Translations under genes and position numbers: made by a program
Part shown: piece by piece, positions 21,421 to 28,588 of the stretch
How the letters are laid out: each line of letters starts with the position of its first letter
Numbering within the stretch: position 1 is the first letter of the stretch
Origin: Moraxella ovis
GTDB taxonomy: Bacteria; Pseudomonadota; Gammaproteobacteria; Pseudomonadales; Moraxellaceae
Assembly: GCF_900453105.1 (NCBI RefSeq)
Contig: NZ_UGPW01000001.1
Location: 2,202,414-2,266,413, forward strand
Length of the DNA: 64,000 nucleotides
Reading direction: 5' to 3'
Notes under the pieces: generated by a model
The model's database searches: none
Told to the model about the DNA's origin: nothing
The model's input: the letters and a program-made list of their open reading frames with translations, nothing else

Positions 21421-22350
21421 ATGAGCAAAGTCCGCGCCAAAGAGCCTCGCACGCCCACCATCATCCATGTGATGGGCGATCCCGTCTATCTGACCGAATT
21501 TCGCACAGCGATGCTGGCACGCGGTCTGTCGGTGCGCACGCGTAACGCCTACATCAGAGACCTAAGATTATGCATGGCGACCACCGACAAGCCTTTGACG
21601 ACTTGGGATAAAGCGGACGTGTATCACTGCCTAGAATCTGCCCAATCCCAAGGCAAAAATCCGCGCACCATCTCTAGAATGCTCGCCAGCCTGCGCCAGT
21701 TCTTCTTGTGGCAGATTGGCAATGAAGTGCGCCTTGACAACCCCTGTCAAGACATCAAGAACCCAAAAGTCACCAAGCCTCTACCCAAGACCTTATCCGA
21801 AGCCGACATCACGCGCCTACTAGACACGCCAAACGTCGCCGCCATGTGCGGACTGCGCGACAAAGCGATGCTTGAAGTCATGTACGCCTGCGGGCTGCGC
21901 GTGAGTGAGCTCGTGAATCTATCGCTAGAGCAGGTCAATCTCAACGCCGGCTGGCTACAGATCACCGGCAAAGGCAACAAGACTCGCCTTATCCCACTGG
22001 GTGAATACGCCCAAAACGCCCTACAAGACTATCTCATCAGACGCGGTGAACTGCTGTCAGGCAAGAGCGACTGTCAAGCGGTGTTCCTCACCGAACAAGG
22101 CGGCTACATGACGCGGCATAATTTTTGGCACATGATTAAAAAATACGCTCTACTGGCGGGTATCAAAACCGACATCTCACCGCACACGCTTCGCCATGCT
22201 TTTGCCACGCACCTGCTCAACCACGGGGCGGATTTGCGTAGCGTTCAGCTTTTGCTCGGGCATAGCGACCTATCCACCACGCAGATTTATACCCACGTTG
22301 CCACGGCACGCTTACAGACGCTCCACGCTGAACATCATCCTAGAGGCTAA
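21421..22350 (+). CDS. xerD: Site-specific tyrosine recombinase XerD
   Basis: XerD works with XerC at dif to resolve chromosome dimers. The 309 residues include the SAM-like N-terminal DNA-binding domain and a catalytic domain with all six catalytic positions: R160 (ACGLRVSEL), K184, H255 and R258 (HTLRHAFATHL), H281 (LLGHSDLST) and nucleophile Y290 (QIYTHV). It is XerD-like rather than an integrase, given its length and its position among housekeeping genes. Its last 11 bases overlap, tail to tail, the end of the helicase gene of the accessory operon. Confidence 0.9.
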   Translation: MSKVRAKEPRTPTIIHVMGDPVYLTEFRTAMLARGLSVRTRNAYIRDLRLCMATTDKPLTTWDKADVYHCLESAQSQGKNPRTISRMLASLRQFFLWQIGNEVRLDNPCQDIKNPKVTKPLPKTLSEADITRLLDTPNVAAMCGLRDKAMLEVMYACGLRVSELVNLSLEQVNLNAGWLQITGKGNKTRLIPLGEYAQNALQDYLIRRGELLSGKSDCQAVFLTEQGGYMTRHNFWHMIKKYALLAGIKTDISPHTLRHAFATHLLNHGADLRSVQLLLGHSDLSTTQIYTHVATARLQTLHAEHHPRG

Positions 22351-24823
22351 GGTATTTTCTCGGTACCACTGTGTTATAAAGCCCCACATACTCATCTTGC
22401 CTGTCAATCCCTGCGTATTCAAGACTGGCATCTTCATAGCGTTTAAAATGCCAAACGGCTTGATTCATCACGCTTTCGTCGAAGACATTTAAAGACACCA
22501 ATAGCGAAAAATCAACCTGTGATAAGCCCGTAACCTTAGTAAACAGCTCAGGCTCAAGCTCTTGAATGACATCTTGCAAATTATGCTCACGGTAATCGCT
22601 TAAATACATAAAAATCGGAATGCGAGTGGCAAACTTGATGAGTTTTTCTTGGATTTGCTTGCGCAAGGATTTTTCTTTTTTCTCTTCGTCCGTCAGTGTT
22701 TTCTTTTCTTCTTTGGTCAGCTCTTCTTCGCCTGCTTTTTTCTTCAAGCCTTTGACTTTTTCTGAACGATTAATGACCACTTCAATATCATCATTAAGGC
22801 TTCTAAACTCTTCAATTTTCATCAAAGCGTCCATGGCATCTTGATTTTTCATCAGATTTTGCAAGGTAAAATCATCAACATTGACCAAAAGTGCCGACTG
22901 CCAACGGCGAGCCAGTAGCGTTGCCGTTGTGCCACTCATCGCCATATCAAGGAGTAGTTTTGCGTCCACTTGTTGCATTGCACTGCCGTCATAGGCAAGC
23001 ACAGGCAAAAAGGCGATAAATTCAGATACTTTACTCTCAGGGTTGCCCTCGGCTGGGTTTAGTTTATGGGCATAATCAGCGATTTGGCGTAAGGCACGAT
23101 TGGGAGCAAAATCAAAGATATAGCATTGATTTTTAATAATATTTATCCCATCATCACCACGCACCGTCCACGGAGTCTGCACCCGAAATCCCGCCTGAAA
23201 ATAAGTCTCAGGGCTGGCACAATTTCTTAGCATAAAAATCCCCGTCCACGCAGGCACGGAGACGCCCGTCATCAGCTTGCCACACGACAGCGTAATGGAT
23301 TTTGTCGCAAGTGGATTATTGCCAATCGCATTATTCACAGGAATTAACGCCCTATCGCCCATTCCTGCACTATTGCCTGCCGATACGATAATATCATAAT
23401 CGTGGTAAAATTTATTATTAGGGGCTTTTAATAAATTTGCCATTGCATAACAACTTGCCACGCTAGGCAAAAACCAAAGCGTATGTAATAAACTGTTTAA
23501 CAAATTCACATCGCTAAATGGCATTGGCGGTTTGGCATTGCCTTGTTTTAAATTGCTAACAATCATCTCATCAAGATTATCACGAATTAAATCCAGCCAT
23601 TTTTGCACATAATTTTCGTGTTTAAATTTAGCCGTTTCACCATTGCCATCTGCTTTAAAAAATTCGCCCAAATCAAATTCATTAAATTCGCCTTGTGTGG
23701 CAATATGGCGAATATTTTCTGGCAATTGATAAGTTAATAACATCATTTGTGGCAATGACAAATAAGGATTATCGCCTTTTGTCTTATCCCATTCTAATTT
23801 GGCTTTTTGTTCATCGCCATAAGTCCAATTAAAAATCTGCTCCTCTATAAATTCACCACTGGCAATCGCTCGAAATGGCGTACCTGATAAATACAAATAA
23901 TGCTCTGTGGTAATGGGCAATTCATTTTCATCAAAACTTTCTACCCCAATTTCCATTTCTTGATATTCATTTTGCATTTTTGCCAATTCATCATCTTTGG
24001 CAAAAAGCGATTTGGCGTTATCACGCCACGCCCCAAAATGGTATTCATCAAATACCACACAATCCCAATTGATGCTATGTATCCATTCATTTTTCGCCTT
24101 AATGTTGCCATATTTATCCCTACCCAGCACATCTTGAAATGAACCAAAATACACCATTGGGCGATTTTTATCATAATCATCAATCGTCAAATCACTATCA
24201 CGGCTGATAAATTGCCAACCATTAAAATCAATGTGGCTTGTCAAATCATCTTGCCACGCCATTTTTACCGCAGGCTTAAAGGTCAAAATCAAAATACGTT
24301 GCCAATTCATCTTTTTGGCAAGCTGATAAGTGGCAAAAGTTTTACCAAATCGCATTTTGGCATTCCACAAAAAATGCGGTGTGCGGTTGTTATTTTTATC
24401 TTGTTTAATAGAATTAAAATAATAAGCGGTTTTATTCACAGCGTCCAATTGCTCTGGACGCATTTTAAAATCTTGTGTGCGTTGCCGTTCAAAAGTTTTG
24501 GCTTTCTTAATATTTAAAATGGCATTTTTGATAGTATCAATATTACATTCAAACCATTCGCCTGCAATGCGGTTAATACCCATTGTTTCTAGCATTTTAT
24601 GCACGGCAAAATCTTTAAAATAACTGCCGTCATCTTTAATCGCCAAAATCTCAAATTCTAGTTTCCAACTTTGGCTTGGCGTAACGGTTGGATAATGCTG
24701 TTTCATTCGCTGGCTTACCGTTTCTTGGGCGGTATAGCCGACTTTTAGGGCGTTGGGATAACGGCTGTCGGAATAGACATAGATTTTTGGTGTGTGGATT
24801 TGGGTAAAGGTTGGGTTGGTCAT
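22340..24823 (-). CDS. T5orf172/GIY-YIG-like nuclease domain fused to DEAD-like helicase
   Basis: The protein has 827 residues. Residues about 13-105 resemble the T5orf172/MUG113 branch of GIY-YIG nucleases: KIYVYSDSRYPNALKVGYT supplies the paired strands, followed by R39 and an EWFEC segment near 89-93. Then comes a superfamily 2 helicase core: motif I MRFGKT (157-162), motif II DEYH (259-262) and the SGTPFRA motif III. A lysine/glutamate-rich coiled segment lies near residues 690-740. It is the last gene of the four-gene operon; its ATG overlaps the FRG gene stop (ATGA). It probably provides translocation and cleavage for a restriction or anti-phage system. The exact system type is unknown to me. 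Confidence 0.75.
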   Translation of the reverse strand: MTNPTFTQIHTPKIYVYSDSRYPNALKVGYTAQETVSQRMKQHYPTVTPSQSWKLEFEILAIKDDGSYFKDFAVHKMLETMGINRIAGEWFECNIDTIKNAILNIKKAKTFERQRTQDFKMRPEQLDAVNKTAYYFNSIKQDKNNNRTPHFLWNAKMRFGKTFATYQLAKKMNWQRILILTFKPAVKMAWQDDLTSHIDFNGWQFISRDSDLTIDDYDKNRPMVYFGSFQDVLGRDKYGNIKAKNEWIHSINWDCVVFDEYHFGAWRDNAKSLFAKDDELAKMQNEYQEMEIGVESFDENELPITTEHYLYLSGTPFRAIASGEFIEEQIFNWTYGDEQKAKLEWDKTKGDNPYLSLPQMMLLTYQLPENIRHIATQGEFNEFDLGEFFKADGNGETAKFKHENYVQKWLDLIRDNLDEMIVSNLKQGNAKPPMPFSDVNLLNSLLHTLWFLPSVASCYAMANLLKAPNNKFYHDYDIIVSAGNSAGMGDRALIPVNNAIGNNPLATKSITLSCGKLMTGVSVPAWTGIFMLRNCASPETYFQAGFRVQTPWTVRGDDGINIIKNQCYIFDFAPNRALRQIADYAHKLNPAEGNPESKVSEFIAFLPVLAYDGSAMQQVDAKLLLDMAMSGTTATLLARRWQSALLVNVDDFTLQNLMKNQDAMDALMKIEEFRSLNDDIEVVINRSEKVKGLKKKAGEEELTKEEKKTLTDEEKKEKSLRKQIQEKLIKFATRIPIFMYLSDYREHNLQDVIQELEPELFTKVTGLSQVDFSLLVSLNVFDESVMNQAVWHFKRYEDASLEYAGIDRQDEYVGLYNTVVPRKYLSL

Positions 24824-25872
24824 TTTGAGTTGTCCTTGTAGCGATTGATAATATGAGCGGATTGTTTATCCAATTCTGGGAATAAGGTTTGATGTCTAAT
24901 ACCAAAATATGCCAACTCTCTTAGAATATTGTTCTTACTGTCAGCATCAATAATAAACTTTGCCCTAACCCACTTTGGATTAACATCAGCTTGATTACTT
25001 TTATTATTTTGAATGCCAAAAATTAAAAACGCTCCGTGTTGCTTGGCAATTCTTGGATTGTTTAATTTTGGCTTGACACAAATAACTTTTTCTAAATCAT
25101 TTGAGTTAATAATTGGCATAAAGTAAGACTTATCTTTACGAATATCATTTAATAATCTCATTATTTGTTCTTGCTGATTAAATGTTTCAAGAAATTTTTT
25201 ATTGTATTCTCTATTTGATAAATGACTTAGTAAATCTTTTGGACTGGAAAAACCAAGCCTTAACATTTCATCTTTTATCTCAATATTAAACTCATTATTT
25301 TGATAAGTTGATTTTGAATTAAACTCTTTTACCATATAAAATGTTTGTGCAATTTTTGCTTGCTGGTCAGAAAAGGAAATAATTTCCTCTAAATCAAAAC
25401 TTTCATCTCTTAAACTTAAAGCTGATAAAATAGCAACCGTATCACTATCGTGATGTTTTATTTCATCATTAGGAATATCAAAAACAATCACCTCTCCGTC
25501 ATTTTTGTCTTTTAATTCATCTTTTGAATTGGAAATGGCAAAATATAAACCAACCAACGCATTATAAGAAATATCTAATAATCGTGTTGGATAATCATAA
25601 TGTTGCATTTTTACCAATTTATCAAAAAGTGTATCGTGTGGCGAAAAGTATTCGGCACATTCAGTTAAAACATCTTTGACAATACGATGTTCGTTTTGAA
25701 TATGCTCTTGCTTTCCAGTATTTTTGTCTTTTCTATAAATGCTTGACTCTAACAAATATTCTTTGTTAGAATGCCCACGAAAAAATCGTGATTTATCTCT
25801 ATCACATTCCCCTAACTCTGATAAAGCACTGACAAAATCTGCAACACTTTCAATTCTAATCGCATTACTCAT
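24820..25872 (-). CDS. FRG-domain protein
   Basis: From the second of two adjacent ATGs (25872; the other is 25875) the protein has 350 residues. It is a full FRG domain: the name motif F31-R32-G33 in SRFFRGHSNKEYLLESS, then MQHYDYPTRLLDISYNAL, GLYFAIS, and RIAKQHGAFLIFGIQ near the end. FRG proteins are common in phage-defence loci; their activity is not established. The start is set by GGAGAG just upstream; a longer frame to 25917 runs inside the preceding methyltransferase gene. It overlaps that gene by 8 or 11 bases and the helicase gene by 4. Very AT-rich compared with the flanks. Confidence 0.85.
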   Translation of the reverse strand: MSNAIRIESVADFVSALSELGECDRDKSRFFRGHSNKEYLLESSIYRKDKNTGKQEHIQNEHRIVKDVLTECAEYFSPHDTLFDKLVKMQHYDYPTRLLDISYNALVGLYFAISNSKDELKDKNDGEVIVFDIPNDEIKHHDSDTVAILSALSLRDESFDLEEIISFSDQQAKIAQTFYMVKEFNSKSTYQNNEFNIEIKDEMLRLGFSSPKDLLSHLSNREYNKKFLETFNQQEQIMRLLNDIRKDKSYFMPIINSNDLEKVICVKPKLNNPRIAKQHGAFLIFGIQNNKSNQADVNPKWVRAKFIIDADSKNNILRELAYFGIRHQTLFPELDKQSAHIINRYKDNSK

Positions 25873-27604
25873 CATCACTCTCCAAATCCAACTCTGATTG
25901 CGTGGTCTTTTTACCACGAGATTTTTTAGGTTTTTCGCCTGTATCGTTATCCATTGAACTTATTGTATTTTCAATTAAATTAATTTCATCTTTTGACAAC
26001 CCATATTTCAAATACAGTTTTTCATCAGACCAACTCTCATAAAAATTTTGCAAAGGCACGAATTGATAAACGCCCCTTGCACCATTTTGGGTTTTTTTCT
26101 TAATGCTTACTAAATATCTAAAAAATTTGGTTTGAATATAAGAAATGATATTTTCGCATTGCTCTTTTGTTAAAAAATGCTTTTTAGGGTCATAACCAAT
26201 AACAAGATAAGTTTGCGAACATACACTATTAGGTTCTCCATAAAAAGGTTTTCCCAAAATTAGATTATTAGAACCATTGGCGGCTGGAATATAAACTTTA
26301 TGTAAATCTTTGCTTGCCAAATTCTTTGGAATTTGTGTTTGACTTACCCAGCCAAATCCAACCGATGAGACATTTTTATTTAGATAATATTTGATATTAA
26401 AATCATCTGTTGGCGATTTTTTAAATCCTTTCCACTTTGAAGTTAAAAACTCTTTATTGGTAAAAAAGTCTTTTGGGCTAACTAATGATGAAAAGTTATT
26501 TTCTTCTTCCAAAAAATAATCTTTATGAATTTTTTTAATTTTATCAATAATTTTAAAAGAATTAGGGTCTCTAATAACAACACCTATTTTATTGGCATCT
26601 AATAAATCAAATCTGCTCAAAACATTTCCGCTTGTTGTGTGATAATTGTATTCACATTTACCATTATAATTACCGTCCCATAAAAAATAGTTTACACCAC
26701 CTTCAATAGGCTGTGCCAAATTTGGAAAACACTCTTTTGAGCTTTCAAAATCATGTATCACTTTAAATTTTGTAGAATTTAATATACCATCAATCCATTC
26801 TGGCGGAATACCTTCCACACTTCGTGTCATCCATCTGCTTGGTGTAATCATAACCAAATATTTAGGATTTAATTTTATTGCCTGCTCTATAAAAAGATGA
26901 TAAATTGCTTTTGCCTTAGAACTATTACCGCCATCATTACCAATATTTAATTGATAAGGCGGATTGCCAATAATCACATCAAATTTCATTTTTAAAATCT
27001 CTTTAAATTCATTGTCTTTATCGCTATGAATAAACGCATAAGCGTGGTTTTCTAAGCCTTGTCGATTACCAAAAACTTCTTGGCTTGCTCCACATTCTGT
27101 GCATTTGCCATTGTCAAATTGATGATTGACATTGCCAAAAATAATATTGCCACTTTCATTATCAAATTCATCACAGATAGAAAATGGCGAATTGGCAACT
27201 TTGGCACAATACACACTACGGCGGGATAATAGGGCGGTAAGTTGGGTAATAGCAATACCAAAAACTTGATGTTTTAGAATGTGGTTAATGCGGGTTTGTT
27301 TATCGGGTATTTGACTTGCCAAACCTTTATCCAAGCGTTTGACAATCTCTCGCAGGAACACGCCCGATTTGCACACAGGGTCTAAAAATCTGGCATTGGG
27401 ATTTTGCCAAATGTCGCTTGGCAATAAATCCAGCATTTGGTTGGCTAGTTTTGGCGATGTAAATACCTCATCATTGGATAGACTGGATAAACAATCCAAA
27501 ACATCAGGATTGTAGGCTTGCTCAAATAGCGATAATTGACCTTGATTAAGAACGTCTAGGTCTTTTGTGATGTTACTGTTTATTTGCAAGTTTAAATTGT
27601 CCAT
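25865..27604 (-). CDS. N6-adenine DNA methyltransferase (Eco57I-like)
   Basis: The 579 residues have the class of motifs seen in Eco57I-type methylases. NDEVFTSPKLANQMLDLLP precedes the SAM-binding motif I DPVCKSGVF (75-83), where a lysine replaces the usual first glycine of C-G-S-G. The catalytic motif IV NPPY is at 214-217, after FDVIIG. A CTEC pair lies at 168-171 and a lysine-rich tail ends the protein. The C-terminal half (about 380-520) is probably target recognition. It starts one base after the stop of the upstream methyltransferase-like gene. Role: most likely protective modification for the restriction system, but it could be part of a fused defence activity. Confidence 0.82.
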   Translation of the reverse strand: MDNLNLQINSNITKDLDVLNQGQLSLFEQAYNPDVLDCLSSLSNDEVFTSPKLANQMLDLLPSDIWQNPNARFLDPVCKSGVFLREIVKRLDKGLASQIPDKQTRINHILKHQVFGIAITQLTALLSRRSVYCAKVANSPFSICDEFDNESGNIIFGNVNHQFDNGKCTECGASQEVFGNRQGLENHAYAFIHSDKDNEFKEILKMKFDVIIGNPPYQLNIGNDGGNSSKAKAIYHLFIEQAIKLNPKYLVMITPSRWMTRSVEGIPPEWIDGILNSTKFKVIHDFESSKECFPNLAQPIEGGVNYFLWDGNYNGKCEYNYHTTSGNVLSRFDLLDANKIGVVIRDPNSFKIIDKIKKIHKDYFLEEENNFSSLVSPKDFFTNKEFLTSKWKGFKKSPTDDFNIKYYLNKNVSSVGFGWVSQTQIPKNLASKDLHKVYIPAANGSNNLILGKPFYGEPNSVCSQTYLVIGYDPKKHFLTKEQCENIISYIQTKFFRYLVSIKKKTQNGARGVYQFVPLQNFYESWSDEKLYLKYGLSKDEINLIENTISSMDNDTGEKPKKSRGKKTTQSELDLESDDE

Positions 27605-27605
27605 T

Positions 27606-28247
27606 TTATTGCTCGCTTAATTTTAGATAATGAATGGGCGGATAATCTTGGATATTTTTGGGAATAAATCCTTGATTGTCGGTTAATTGATTATTGGTTT
27701 TTTCTACCAAATGCTCATAAATATAATCACGCCTTTGAATGATCGTGTCGCTGATGAACTTCCATTCGCTAAATAGAATCGGATTATCATTTAAATCTTT
27801 TAAGGTTAGGGCATTGCCATTGACAATATTTTTTGACAACAAAAACTCTGCCGTTTGAATAACAGCAGAGTTAATTTTTTTAAAATGGCTTTGATAATGG
27901 TCTAGAAATAAACCCAATAATCGGCTACGGCATTCGGTGCAATTATCCGATAATAGCTCAATGCCATAAATGCTGGATATGGCATGAATGGCGTGCTTTT
28001 CGTAATGAAATTGGGAATATTTGGGGGATTTTTGGCTTTTGTTGATTTGGGATAATTTTAGGGAGGTTGTCAGTTTTCGGCTTAAAATTTCCGCCAAAAA
28101 ATTGCCCGTGCCACACGCAGGCTCCAAAAAGGTGCTGGCGATTTGTTCGGATTGGGCTTTGACCAAATCCAGCATTGCCTTAACTTCACGCTCAGCGGTA
28201 AATACTTCGCCGTGGTCGGCAACACGCTGACGAGATTTAACCTGCAT
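27606..28247 (-). CDS. Methyltransferase-like protein with SAM motif but no catalytic NPPY
   Basis: The 213-residue first gene of the operon begins with DHGEVFTAEREVKAMLDLV and motif I EPACGTGNF (42-50), both typical of N6-adenine methylases. The protein ends before any N/D-P-P-Y motif could follow. It may be a regulatory or specificity partner for the catalytic methylase encoded next, or a shortened relic. The ATG at 28247 has AGGGG 7 bases upstream. All three upstream frames were checked and none joins the repeat array in frame to this gene. An in-frame TAG lies 21 bases before the ATG. Confidence 0.75.
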   Translation of the reverse strand: MQVKSRQRVADHGEVFTAEREVKAMLDLVKAQSEQIASTFLEPACGTGNFLAEILSRKLTTSLKLSQINKSQKSPKYSQFHYEKHAIHAISSIYGIELLSDNCTECRSRLLGLFLDHYQSHFKKINSAVIQTAEFLLSKNIVNGNALTLKDLNDNPILFSEWKFISDTIIQRRDYIYEHLVEKTNNQLTDNQGFIPKNIQDYPPIHYLKLSEQ

Positions 28248-28327
28248 GGGATTGCCCCTTGCAAGCTAGTGGATGATAGGATTTAGAATAAGAAAAAGAA
28301 GTGGAATATCGGGCGGAAGTTAGGCTA

Positions 28328-28423
28328 GCAGGTACGCAGGTACGCAGGTACGCAGGTACGCAGGTACGCAGGTACGCAGGTACGCAGGTACGCAGGTACG
28401 CAGGTACGCAGGTACGCAGGTAC
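28328..28423. repeat. Tandem array of 12 perfect 8-base units (GCAGGTAC)
   Basis: There are twelve exact copies of GCAGGTAC (GTACCTGC on the minus strand), followed by a partial GCA. The array lies between a strong leftward promoter and the first gene of the restriction-like operon, so it is in the transcribed leader. Identical short units in this number are prone to slipped-strand changes and typical of phase-variable loci. Eight is not a multiple of three, so any reading frame through it would shift with copy number. Confidence 0.95.
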
Positions 28424-28425
28424 GC

Positions 28426-28453
28426 ATTATAGCGCGCTTGAGAATTTCGTCAA
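28426..28453 (-). promoter_or_regulatory. Strong sigma-70 promoter of the restriction-like operon
   Basis: On the minus strand, TTGACG (28453-28448), a 16-base spacer and TATAAT (28431-28426). The predicted transcript would start about 28420, inside the repeat unit nearest the promoter, giving a leader of about 170 bases before the ATG at 28247. With the array, it explains the gene-free stretch 28248-28588; nothing else is seen there. Confidence 0.75.
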
Positions 28454-28588
28454 TAAAATACATAACAAAACCGAGTAAATATTTATGAAAATTCTATCAT
28501 ATAGCGCTTATTTTCTAAAGTAAAATAAATAGGTTTTATGGCGTATGGCTTTTTGTTACAATAATCAAAACTTTTTTGGAAAAACATC

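Follow-up and report, generated by a model that had tools for sequence, protein, structure and literature searches.

Introduction

Type ISP restriction-modification (R-M) enzymes such as LlaGI and LlaBIII combine a superfamily 2 (SF2) translocase, a methylase and a recognition domain, with no separate HsdS, and are described as one chain with an Mrr-family nuclease (PMC4666363). Toxic effector genes may be embedded among R-M genes, as is the case of PrrC, which the EcoprrI R-M enzyme keeps silent until an anti-restriction peptide of a phage sets it free (PMC3506569, PMC2610378), and of DarTG2, embedded in the hsd operon of enteropathogenic Escherichia coli (PMC12255303). Methylases switched by simple repeats include a phase-variable Campylobacter Type IIG enzyme (PMC4889913) and the Moraxella Mod proteins, with CAAC tracts in the modM and modN open reading frames (ORFs) and CAACG upstream of modO (PMC6241649, PMC7302503). 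In M. catarrhalis, a GCGTCAA tract was also found 122 bp upstream of the 'restriction endonuclease subunit M' gene RS08500 (PMC7302503), with 5, 28, 2, 12 and 11 copies in five genomes (PMC7302503, Table 1); it was rated highly likely to be phase-variable, yet it was excluded as belonging to a truncated ORF in an R-M hotspot (PMC7302503). Here we describe an operon of Moraxella ovis, found in a stretch of 64,000 nucleotides (contig NZ_UGPW01000001.1, positions 2,202,414 to 2,266,413; hereafter the window), in which genes for two methylase-related proteins (M1 and M2), an FRG-domain protein (FRG) and a presumed restriction subunit (R) follow a repeat array crossed by a leader ORF (table 1).

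An earlier note on this DNA had singled out the four leftward genes as tightly joined, and this was confirmed: all four lie on the minus strand, with a spacing of 1 base between M1 and M2 and overlaps of 8 bases between M2 and FRG (11 if the upstream ATG is used) and of 4 bases (ATGA) between FRG and R. The 12-copy, 8-base tandem repeat and the leader ORF running through it were absent from that note. The parts of the operon, an R-M core and an embedded defence candidate, are ordinary; what appears to be new is their combination, a putative frame-based leader switch placed before an R-M operon with cargo of a toxic type.

Comparison with described systems

The expectation of a defence-type operon with no named counterpart was borne out, in that Pfam, NCBIfam and PADLOC scans returned matches to the individual proteins only. 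The term 'undescribed' holds for the set, no named system containing all four, but not for its parts: FRG is catalogued as PDC-S15, a 'guilt by embedding' candidate of a 2024 preprint by Payne et al. (via PMC12988326, PMC12255303, PMC10855318), and PADLOC holds a profile of fused R and M2 (PDLC03626, REase_MTase_IIG). The latter spans 1,359 positions and matches R (131-822) and M2 (863-1356), with no match to M1.

Unlike the Type ISP enzymes, with which they share the combination of SF2 translocase, methylase and recognition domain, the M. ovis proteins are separate chains with a GIY-YIG-type nuclease domain and the additional M1, and none of the four is a single Mrr nuclease-helicase-methylase-recognition chain. 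A chain with T5orf172, ResIII and Eco57I domains in one protein, found on scanning a locus of another Moraxella genome (L108 4477-9677, genome G004), is a fused cousin of R and M2 that bridges the two layouts; with a similar chain in L109 (G001) it makes two Moraxella genomes with single-chain relatives, of 1,427 or 1,435 residues. These are preceded by an ORF of 306 or 324 residues, the shorter of which has no Pfam match. As to Type I systems, no Methylase_S or HsdR family was found in the four proteins, and M1 gave only weak matches to MTase_I (about 20 bits or less). As to Type III systems, the logic of a methylase with a helicase-nuclease is present, but M2 is of the Eco57I type, R begins with a T5orf172/GIY-YIG domain and M1 is extra. 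For BREX, DISARM and MADS, the scan of the four proteins gave matches far under the cut-off for PglX (22 of 400 bits) and MAD2 (30 of 720 bits), and no other component.

PrrC and DarTG2 resemble FRG in being toxic effector genes lodged among R-M genes; however, their hosts are Type I systems and the effectors a tRNA nuclease or DarT, while for FRG release is only proposed. With the Mod genes and the Campylobacter enzyme, the M. ovis operon shares the presumed use of simple repeats to switch a methylase, but the tract lies within the modM and modN ORFs or upstream of modO, whereas in M. ovis it lies in a separate leader, which in its open phase would terminate on the start codon of M1, the first of several genes. 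The available accounts of the 'guilt by embedding' candidates mention neither the M1-M2-R host operon nor a repeat switch, and PMC11868660 makes no mention of translational coupling or a leader. Among titles and beginnings of abstracts, largely of open papers, which are weak evidence of absence, no description was found of a three-gene system with a leader-repeat switch, nor any paper combining phase variation, translational coupling and a repeat tract.

Table 1. The Moraxella ovis operon, its upstream region and the convergent neighbour (positions in the window).
Feature	Positions	Strand	Remarks
M1	27606-28247	minus	213 amino acids; ORF list
M2	25865-27604	minus	579 amino acids; ORF list
FRG	24820-25872	minus	350 amino acids from ATG; alternative ATG at 25875
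R	22340-24823	minus	827 amino acids; ORF list
Perfect array, (TGCGTACC)x12	28331-28426	minus	ends 83 bases before M1
Array by Tandem Repeats Finder, (GCAGGTAC)12.4	28328-28426		100% matches
Leader ORF	28320-28463	minus	47 codons at 12 copies; stop codon starting 75 bases ahead of the M1 ATG
Candidate leader promoter, TTTACT-17-TATGAT or TTTAGA-17-TAGAAT	28491-28524	minus	consensus scan only
Candidate promoter, TTGACG-16-TATAAT	28426-28453	minus	inside the leader, ending at the array; consensus only
Convergent ORF	21421-22350		phage-integrase-family (Xer-like) recombinase

The repeat array and the leader frame

The array is the sole one with more than 3 copies among the three that Tandem Repeats Finder reports in the 64-kb window, and the only position in the genome with at least 3 copies of the 8-base unit. 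Two genomes with 97% identical M1 carry 12 and 6 copies of TGCGTACC, respectively, the 6-copy genome being a draft. At 11 or 14 copies, instead of stopping well before M1, the M. ovis leader would stop at +8, with a TAA overlapping the M1 start (ATGCAGGTTAA).

The search for M1 gave matches in 11 of 22 Moraxella genomes and in 28 of 140 presumed Pasteurellaceae genomes, and the upstream regions of 33 of the 45 M1 loci were read, the 12 omitted being weak or partial matches (L256-L260, L269-L275). Arrays of at least 3 perfect copies precede M1 in 12 of these 33 loci (11 of them independent, M. ovis included), namely TGCGTACC (12 and 6 copies), TGCACACC (14), AGCGTCA (7), CACG (24 and 30), ACGC (8 and 19), AACGCAC (3), GCAAC (15) and CGCAA (4); a rotation of the M. 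ovis unit, ACCTGCGT, is present in 12 copies in a genome with an M1 of just 53% identity. Up to rotation there are six units, of 8, 8, 7, 4, 7 and 5 bases, none divisible by 3. In all 11 loci, one phase in three reaches the M1 start or enters M1, and the two others stop upstream; in the nine independent loci in which M1 has its own ATG, the open phase ends at +1 (ATGA; three loci) or at +8 (six), against 3.7 of 9 expected from dinucleotide shuffles of the spacer (p 2e-4 if the loci are independent). The remaining two, L237 and L238, are in-frame fusions: their open phase shares the frame of M1, which lacks an ATG, GTG or TTG start. In 8 of 11 loci, both other frames meet a stop no more than 11 bases from the array, mostly through TAGNNTAA, and a purine-rich site precedes M1's own start in 9 of 11. 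Several open-phase leaders end alike (LACKGQSHAG, LACKAVRYAS, SACKEISYAS, LACKGLSYAS), partly because they overlap the ribosome site and start of M1 and because the loci share ancestry. By taking into account the unit lengths and the single open phase in three, phase-variable translational coupling is implied; with a simple repeat, a unit not divisible by 3 and a frame-dependent reading, the locus is one of predicted phase variation.

Some limits apply to these figures. L262, a near copy of the M. ovis locus, was left out of the tests; L238, which begins at a contig end so that its leader start is out of view, was left out of the phase count and of the shuffle test, and the likewise fused L237 out of the latter. 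A Fisher value of 2e-11 from the leader-reading analysis is a description rather than a clean test, the statistic having been picked post hoc on related loci. The geometry tests do not include two arrays that lie within the M1 ORF itself, TGGCG in 23 copies (L005 1-113, Burkholderiales; at a contig end) and CCAG in 12 copies (L008 from about 4133, Methyloglobulus; outside the two families), the latter in frame and in the open phase, which would extend M1 phase variation beyond the two families.

The published tracts can be placed alongside these arrays. GCGTCAA is a rotation of the AGCGTCA of L264, whose array ends 126 bases before M1, and from the repeat, the distance and the gene name we infer that RS08500 belongs to the M1 family. 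The CAACG found upstream of modO yields, when rotated, the unit that L237 and L238 carry.

A promoter consensus scan of the region yielded 24 sites against 25.3 in shuffles, a result that carries no weight on its own. In 8 of the 10 repeat loci scanned, the array is preceded at a distance of 45-98 bases by a promoter-like site, a count made without a shuffle control. A hairpin hiding the M1 ribosome site was tried and rejected, predicted pairing being no better than in shuffles in 9 of 10 windows.

The M1-M2-R core

A profile search with R yielded at least 80 loci in many phyla, which were then scanned with M1, M2, FRG and R profiles. Among the matches listed, M1, M2 and R stand in this order on one strand in 66 of 80; in 11 of the other 14 the contig breaks off no more than 3 kb upstream of R, and in three (L012, L021, L024) the methylase genes are damaged or absent. 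Identity of the M. ovis R with those of Bacteroidota, Chloroflexota, Clostridia or Cyanobacteria loci is 57-63%, again among the matches listed. M1-M2-R is a conserved cross-phylum core with the predicted make-up of an R-M system, widespread but little studied.

The domains assigned in the earlier note were recovered. M2 matches Pfam Eco57I (E 6e-32) across its NPPY motif, carries DPVCKSGVFL as well, and would be an Eco57I-type N6-adenine methylase whose divergent C-terminal half is presumed to recognize the target. M1, described in that note as having a S-adenosylmethionine (SAM) motif only, indeed has F-x-[EQ]-W instead of NPPY at the motif IV position in alignment A3. Its Pfam matches are below threshold (MmeI_Mtase 26.6 bits, cut-off 27; N6_Mtase 15.9, cut-off 20.4), and it resembles the SAM domain of M2 (E 5e-4 in a search within the M. 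ovis genome). Alignment A3 (41 M1 rows, two from the same locus; every second row displayed) defines a family of about 220 residues with 37 invariant columns and conserved stretches FLEPACGTGNFL (SAM site), YGIDIL.DN and NI..GDAL; this length and this conservation rule out a truncated gene or pseudogene. The AlphaFold model of M1 has a mean predicted local distance difference test (pLDDT) value of 89.6, and Foldseek returned nothing for it at E <0.1, the top rows being CamA and then Type ISP LlaGI (rank 2, E 0.18), with LlaBIII at rank 19 (E 0.8). M1 may be a pseudo-enzyme that pairs with a catalytic M2 as a heterodimer.

R matches Pfam T5orf172 (E 2e-9), and its columns Y15, Y17, G29, R39, H75 and E89, conserved in 11 sequences, presumably occupy GIY-YIG-type positions. 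The SF2 helicase that the earlier note saw in R stands as regards its motifs, AKMRFGKT, DEYH, SGTP and QAxFRVQ being invariant or nearly so in 11 relatives and presumably of helicase type, but not as a family assignment, since the Pfam scan of the window R gave no helicase family; ResIII (PF04851) is present in some relatives. R is presumed to be the restriction subunit, with a predicted T5orf172/GIY-YIG nuclease domain and an SF2-type helicase. Its nearest named proteins are those of M. haemolytica and M. bovis, and a sequence comparison of R with solved structures gave no match at E <0.001.

Conservation is uneven along the operon. Compared with the M. haemolytica relative, R is 90% identical, M2 78% over residues 1-300 and 42% over 301-540, FRG 52% and M1 65%; full-length R is 79-90% identical within Moraxella, except for the G003 lineage (64%). 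The G+C content is 29.7% in FRG and 29.4% in the C-terminal half of M2, versus 39.6% in R and 46.2% in the window. From their low identity and low G+C, the recognition half of M2 and FRG would therefore be an exchanged cassette in a fixed locus.

The 3' end of R shares its last 11 bases with the convergent ORF. The same 11-base overlap with a convergent ORF of 308-317 residues is seen in four Moraxella genomes (window 22340-22350; L100 2026-2036; L102 2915-2925; L106 2662-2672); the two such ORFs scanned (window and L100) are integrase-family recombinases, and R sits at a fixed chromosomal site.

FRG and the accessory slot

FRG matches PF08867 (E 3e-18, 66.9 bits, cut-off 25) and the PDC-S15 profile (E 2.4e-91). 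In its predicted structure, a helical insert (about residues 155-250) sits in a fold like that of ADP-ribosyltransferases; Arg31 is invariant in alignment A2, with no invariant Glu in the third motif region. Foldseek with the model gave nothing at E <0.001, nor did sequence comparison with solved structures, where the best row (E 0.1) was an RNA-editing complex protein. FRG is probably an effector of predicted ADP-ribosyltransferase fold, consuming nicotinamide adenine dinucleotide (NAD) or modifying a target.

Between M2 and R, core loci have a slot that, among the matches listed, is occupied in 23 of 66 and without an ORF of at least 100 residues in 43, of which 34 have an M2-R gap of 20 bases or less, or an overlap. 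Fifty-seven slot ORFs of at least 100 residues were clustered (including Moraxella/Pasteurellaceae and contig-end-cut loci, with L004, L002 and L059 removed as duplicates), and 20 proteins were scanned with Pfam, 10 with PADLOC and five more with Pfam. They comprise YhcG nuclease (PDC-S02), BRO-N (PDC-S13), RhuM (PDC-S05) and AAA with DUF4276 (HEC-01), which like FRG have counterparts in the 'guilt by embedding' catalogue, as well as HEPN-AbiV, Apea-like HEPN, Fic, AlbA_2, Ppl-type SMC, HARE-HTH and FRG itself; three of the first 20 proteins had no Pfam family. FRG, as judged from these comparisons, is an accessory gene in a slot in which unrelated genes alternate. One slot ORF (L223 5894-6856) is an IS110-family transposase, so that the slot also receives insertion sequences. 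In Moraxella the slot holds FRG, a protein of 220-221 residues, or nothing; this protein (L084 195-860, L103 2438-3103, L104 5024-5686) has at best weak DUF3223/HamC similarity and is possibly a new embedded defence gene.

The co-occurrence proposed for checking in the earlier note was found, the four-gene order with FRG in the slot being present in 8 genomes of two families (G000, which is M. ovis, G004, G015, G432, G523, G394, G273 and G391), not all of them intact: G015 has a split M2 and an R cut short by the contig end, G391 has an interrupted R, and the G394 slot has two extra ORFs. The FRGs of G394, G273 and G391 are divergent. In G015 (L105 2272-4006), M2 appears as two overlapping ORFs, and the copy may be broken or mis-assembled. 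FRG remnants occupy the slot in G390 and G010; the latter (L107 123-629) is decayed, a single short ORF fusing the beginning of FRG with the final part of R, with M1 and M2 ORFs still long. Protein queries with the window FRG and R against 369 genomes of the class matched 17 and 14 genomes, respectively, and both only in M. ovis, a query with the window FRG missing divergent FRGs such as that in the G273 slot. Elsewhere, a Type I system (L205 4332-11679) has a Pfam-FRG gene sited between its hsdS and hsdR genes, and in L206 (3-3870) such a gene immediately follows hsdS. Arrays accompany 7 of 9 FRG loci and 5 of 23 others (Fisher p 0.006), a tally made by hand, with G010 omitted and the slots of some genomes cut off by contig ends, which is confounded by descent and hence was not used.

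Proposed mechanism and alternatives

From the gene set and its conservation, the slot, the array, the frame geometry and the predicted fold of FRG, we consider it reasonably probable that the operon is a three-subunit, ATP-dependent R-M system with an embedded FRG effector, phase-variable through its leader frame. M1 and M2 would methylate adenine within a target that the C-terminal half of M2 specifies, and R would act as a GIY-YIG nuclease driven by an SF2 translocase. FRG would be silent in the intact complex or cell and be released once restriction is inhibited or overwhelmed. The earlier note supposed an effector that could act on failure of modification; in the known precedent, PrrC with EcoprrI, release follows inhibition of restriction (PMC3506569, PMC2610378). 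A change of copy number in the 8-base array would shift the frame in which the leader is translated. Ribosomes on the leader would, in one of its three phases, terminate on the M1 start codon and re-initiate there; in the others they would stop tens of bases upstream. M1 would be high or low accordingly, and the rest of the operon would follow through the one-base spacing and the overlaps.

The sign of this switch is its most exposed point. The early-stop phase is found in 10 of 10 readable independent arrays of the two families, plus L262 (chance 0.017). We take this uniformity to reflect selection in culture for low expression, but it is also the chief reason to doubt the sign proposed, as it would be expected if the leader running over the M1 start blocked M1, which would then be made when the leader stops early. 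That M1 has its own start, mostly behind a purine-rich site, would suit such a reversal; L237 and L238, in which the M1 frame offers no start codon so that only the run-through phase should yield M1, speak against it, and we regard it as improbable. The array might instead tune transcription or act as part of the 5' untranslated region, giving graded expression whatever the leader frame. Six of 10 repeat loci scanned have a promoter-like sequence that stops 6 bases or less from the array, TTGACG-16-TATAAT stops at the array of M. ovis, and the upstream tracts of uspA1 and uspA2 of M. catarrhalis are reported with changed mRNA levels, modO having an upstream tract as well (PMC7302503). Across the 11 loci and their six unit types no unit is divisible by 3, and one phase ends at or enters M1 in every one of these loci, two being in-frame fusions; this makes tuning unlikely, though a less distant prospect than the reversed sign.

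The role of FRG is less settled, and a sizeable minority of our belief goes to FRG as an independent passenger, a complete single-gene phage defence functionally unlinked to M1-M2-R, embedding giving it co-transfer and co-expression. Unrelated genes fill the slot elsewhere; the FRG genes of L196-L202 have no adjacent M1, M2 or R profile match (their neighbours are mostly not annotated further), those of L203 and L204 adjoin methionine-synthase/Fic and carbamoyl-phosphate-synthase genes, and PADLOC handles PDC-S15 as a single-gene candidate. The tight overlaps of FRG with both neighbours, its recurrence in two kinds of R-M operon and the precedent of PrrC, for which coupling is real (PMC3506569), favour a functional link. 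At the other extreme, the four-part combination of the earlier note can be read as a new restriction machine of four proteins in which FRG is an obligate component. This reading could appeal to the order conserved in 8 genomes and to the overlaps; it did not survive, most core loci lacking FRG and R proteins 79-90% identical to that of M. ovis occurring without it in other Moraxella genomes, and we hold it to be very improbable. As to the broader claim, it seems to us an even matter whether the phase-variable three-subunit system with its FRG effector represents an unrecognised class of defence operon, in which a stop-start-coupled leader repeat switches restriction and a suicide effector all or none, with one frame design kept in two families through six units, and which includes a hidden Moraxella phasevarion excluded from a survey as a truncated ORF.

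Concluding remarks

The Moraxella 'truncated methylase' is suggested to be an intact, phase-variable restriction subunit, and by means of the array individual cells can probably raise or lower the expression of the operon. With its leader repeat, two-frame stop block and stop-start overlap, a switch of this design could regulate up or down, as a single unit, a methylase-nuclease-effector operon that is possibly toxic to its own cell. Furthermore, the accessory slot known from Type I operons also exists in another, cross-phylum R-M family, which aids the search for effector genes of the kind of FRG and raises the question of whether they are guarded by the host complex.

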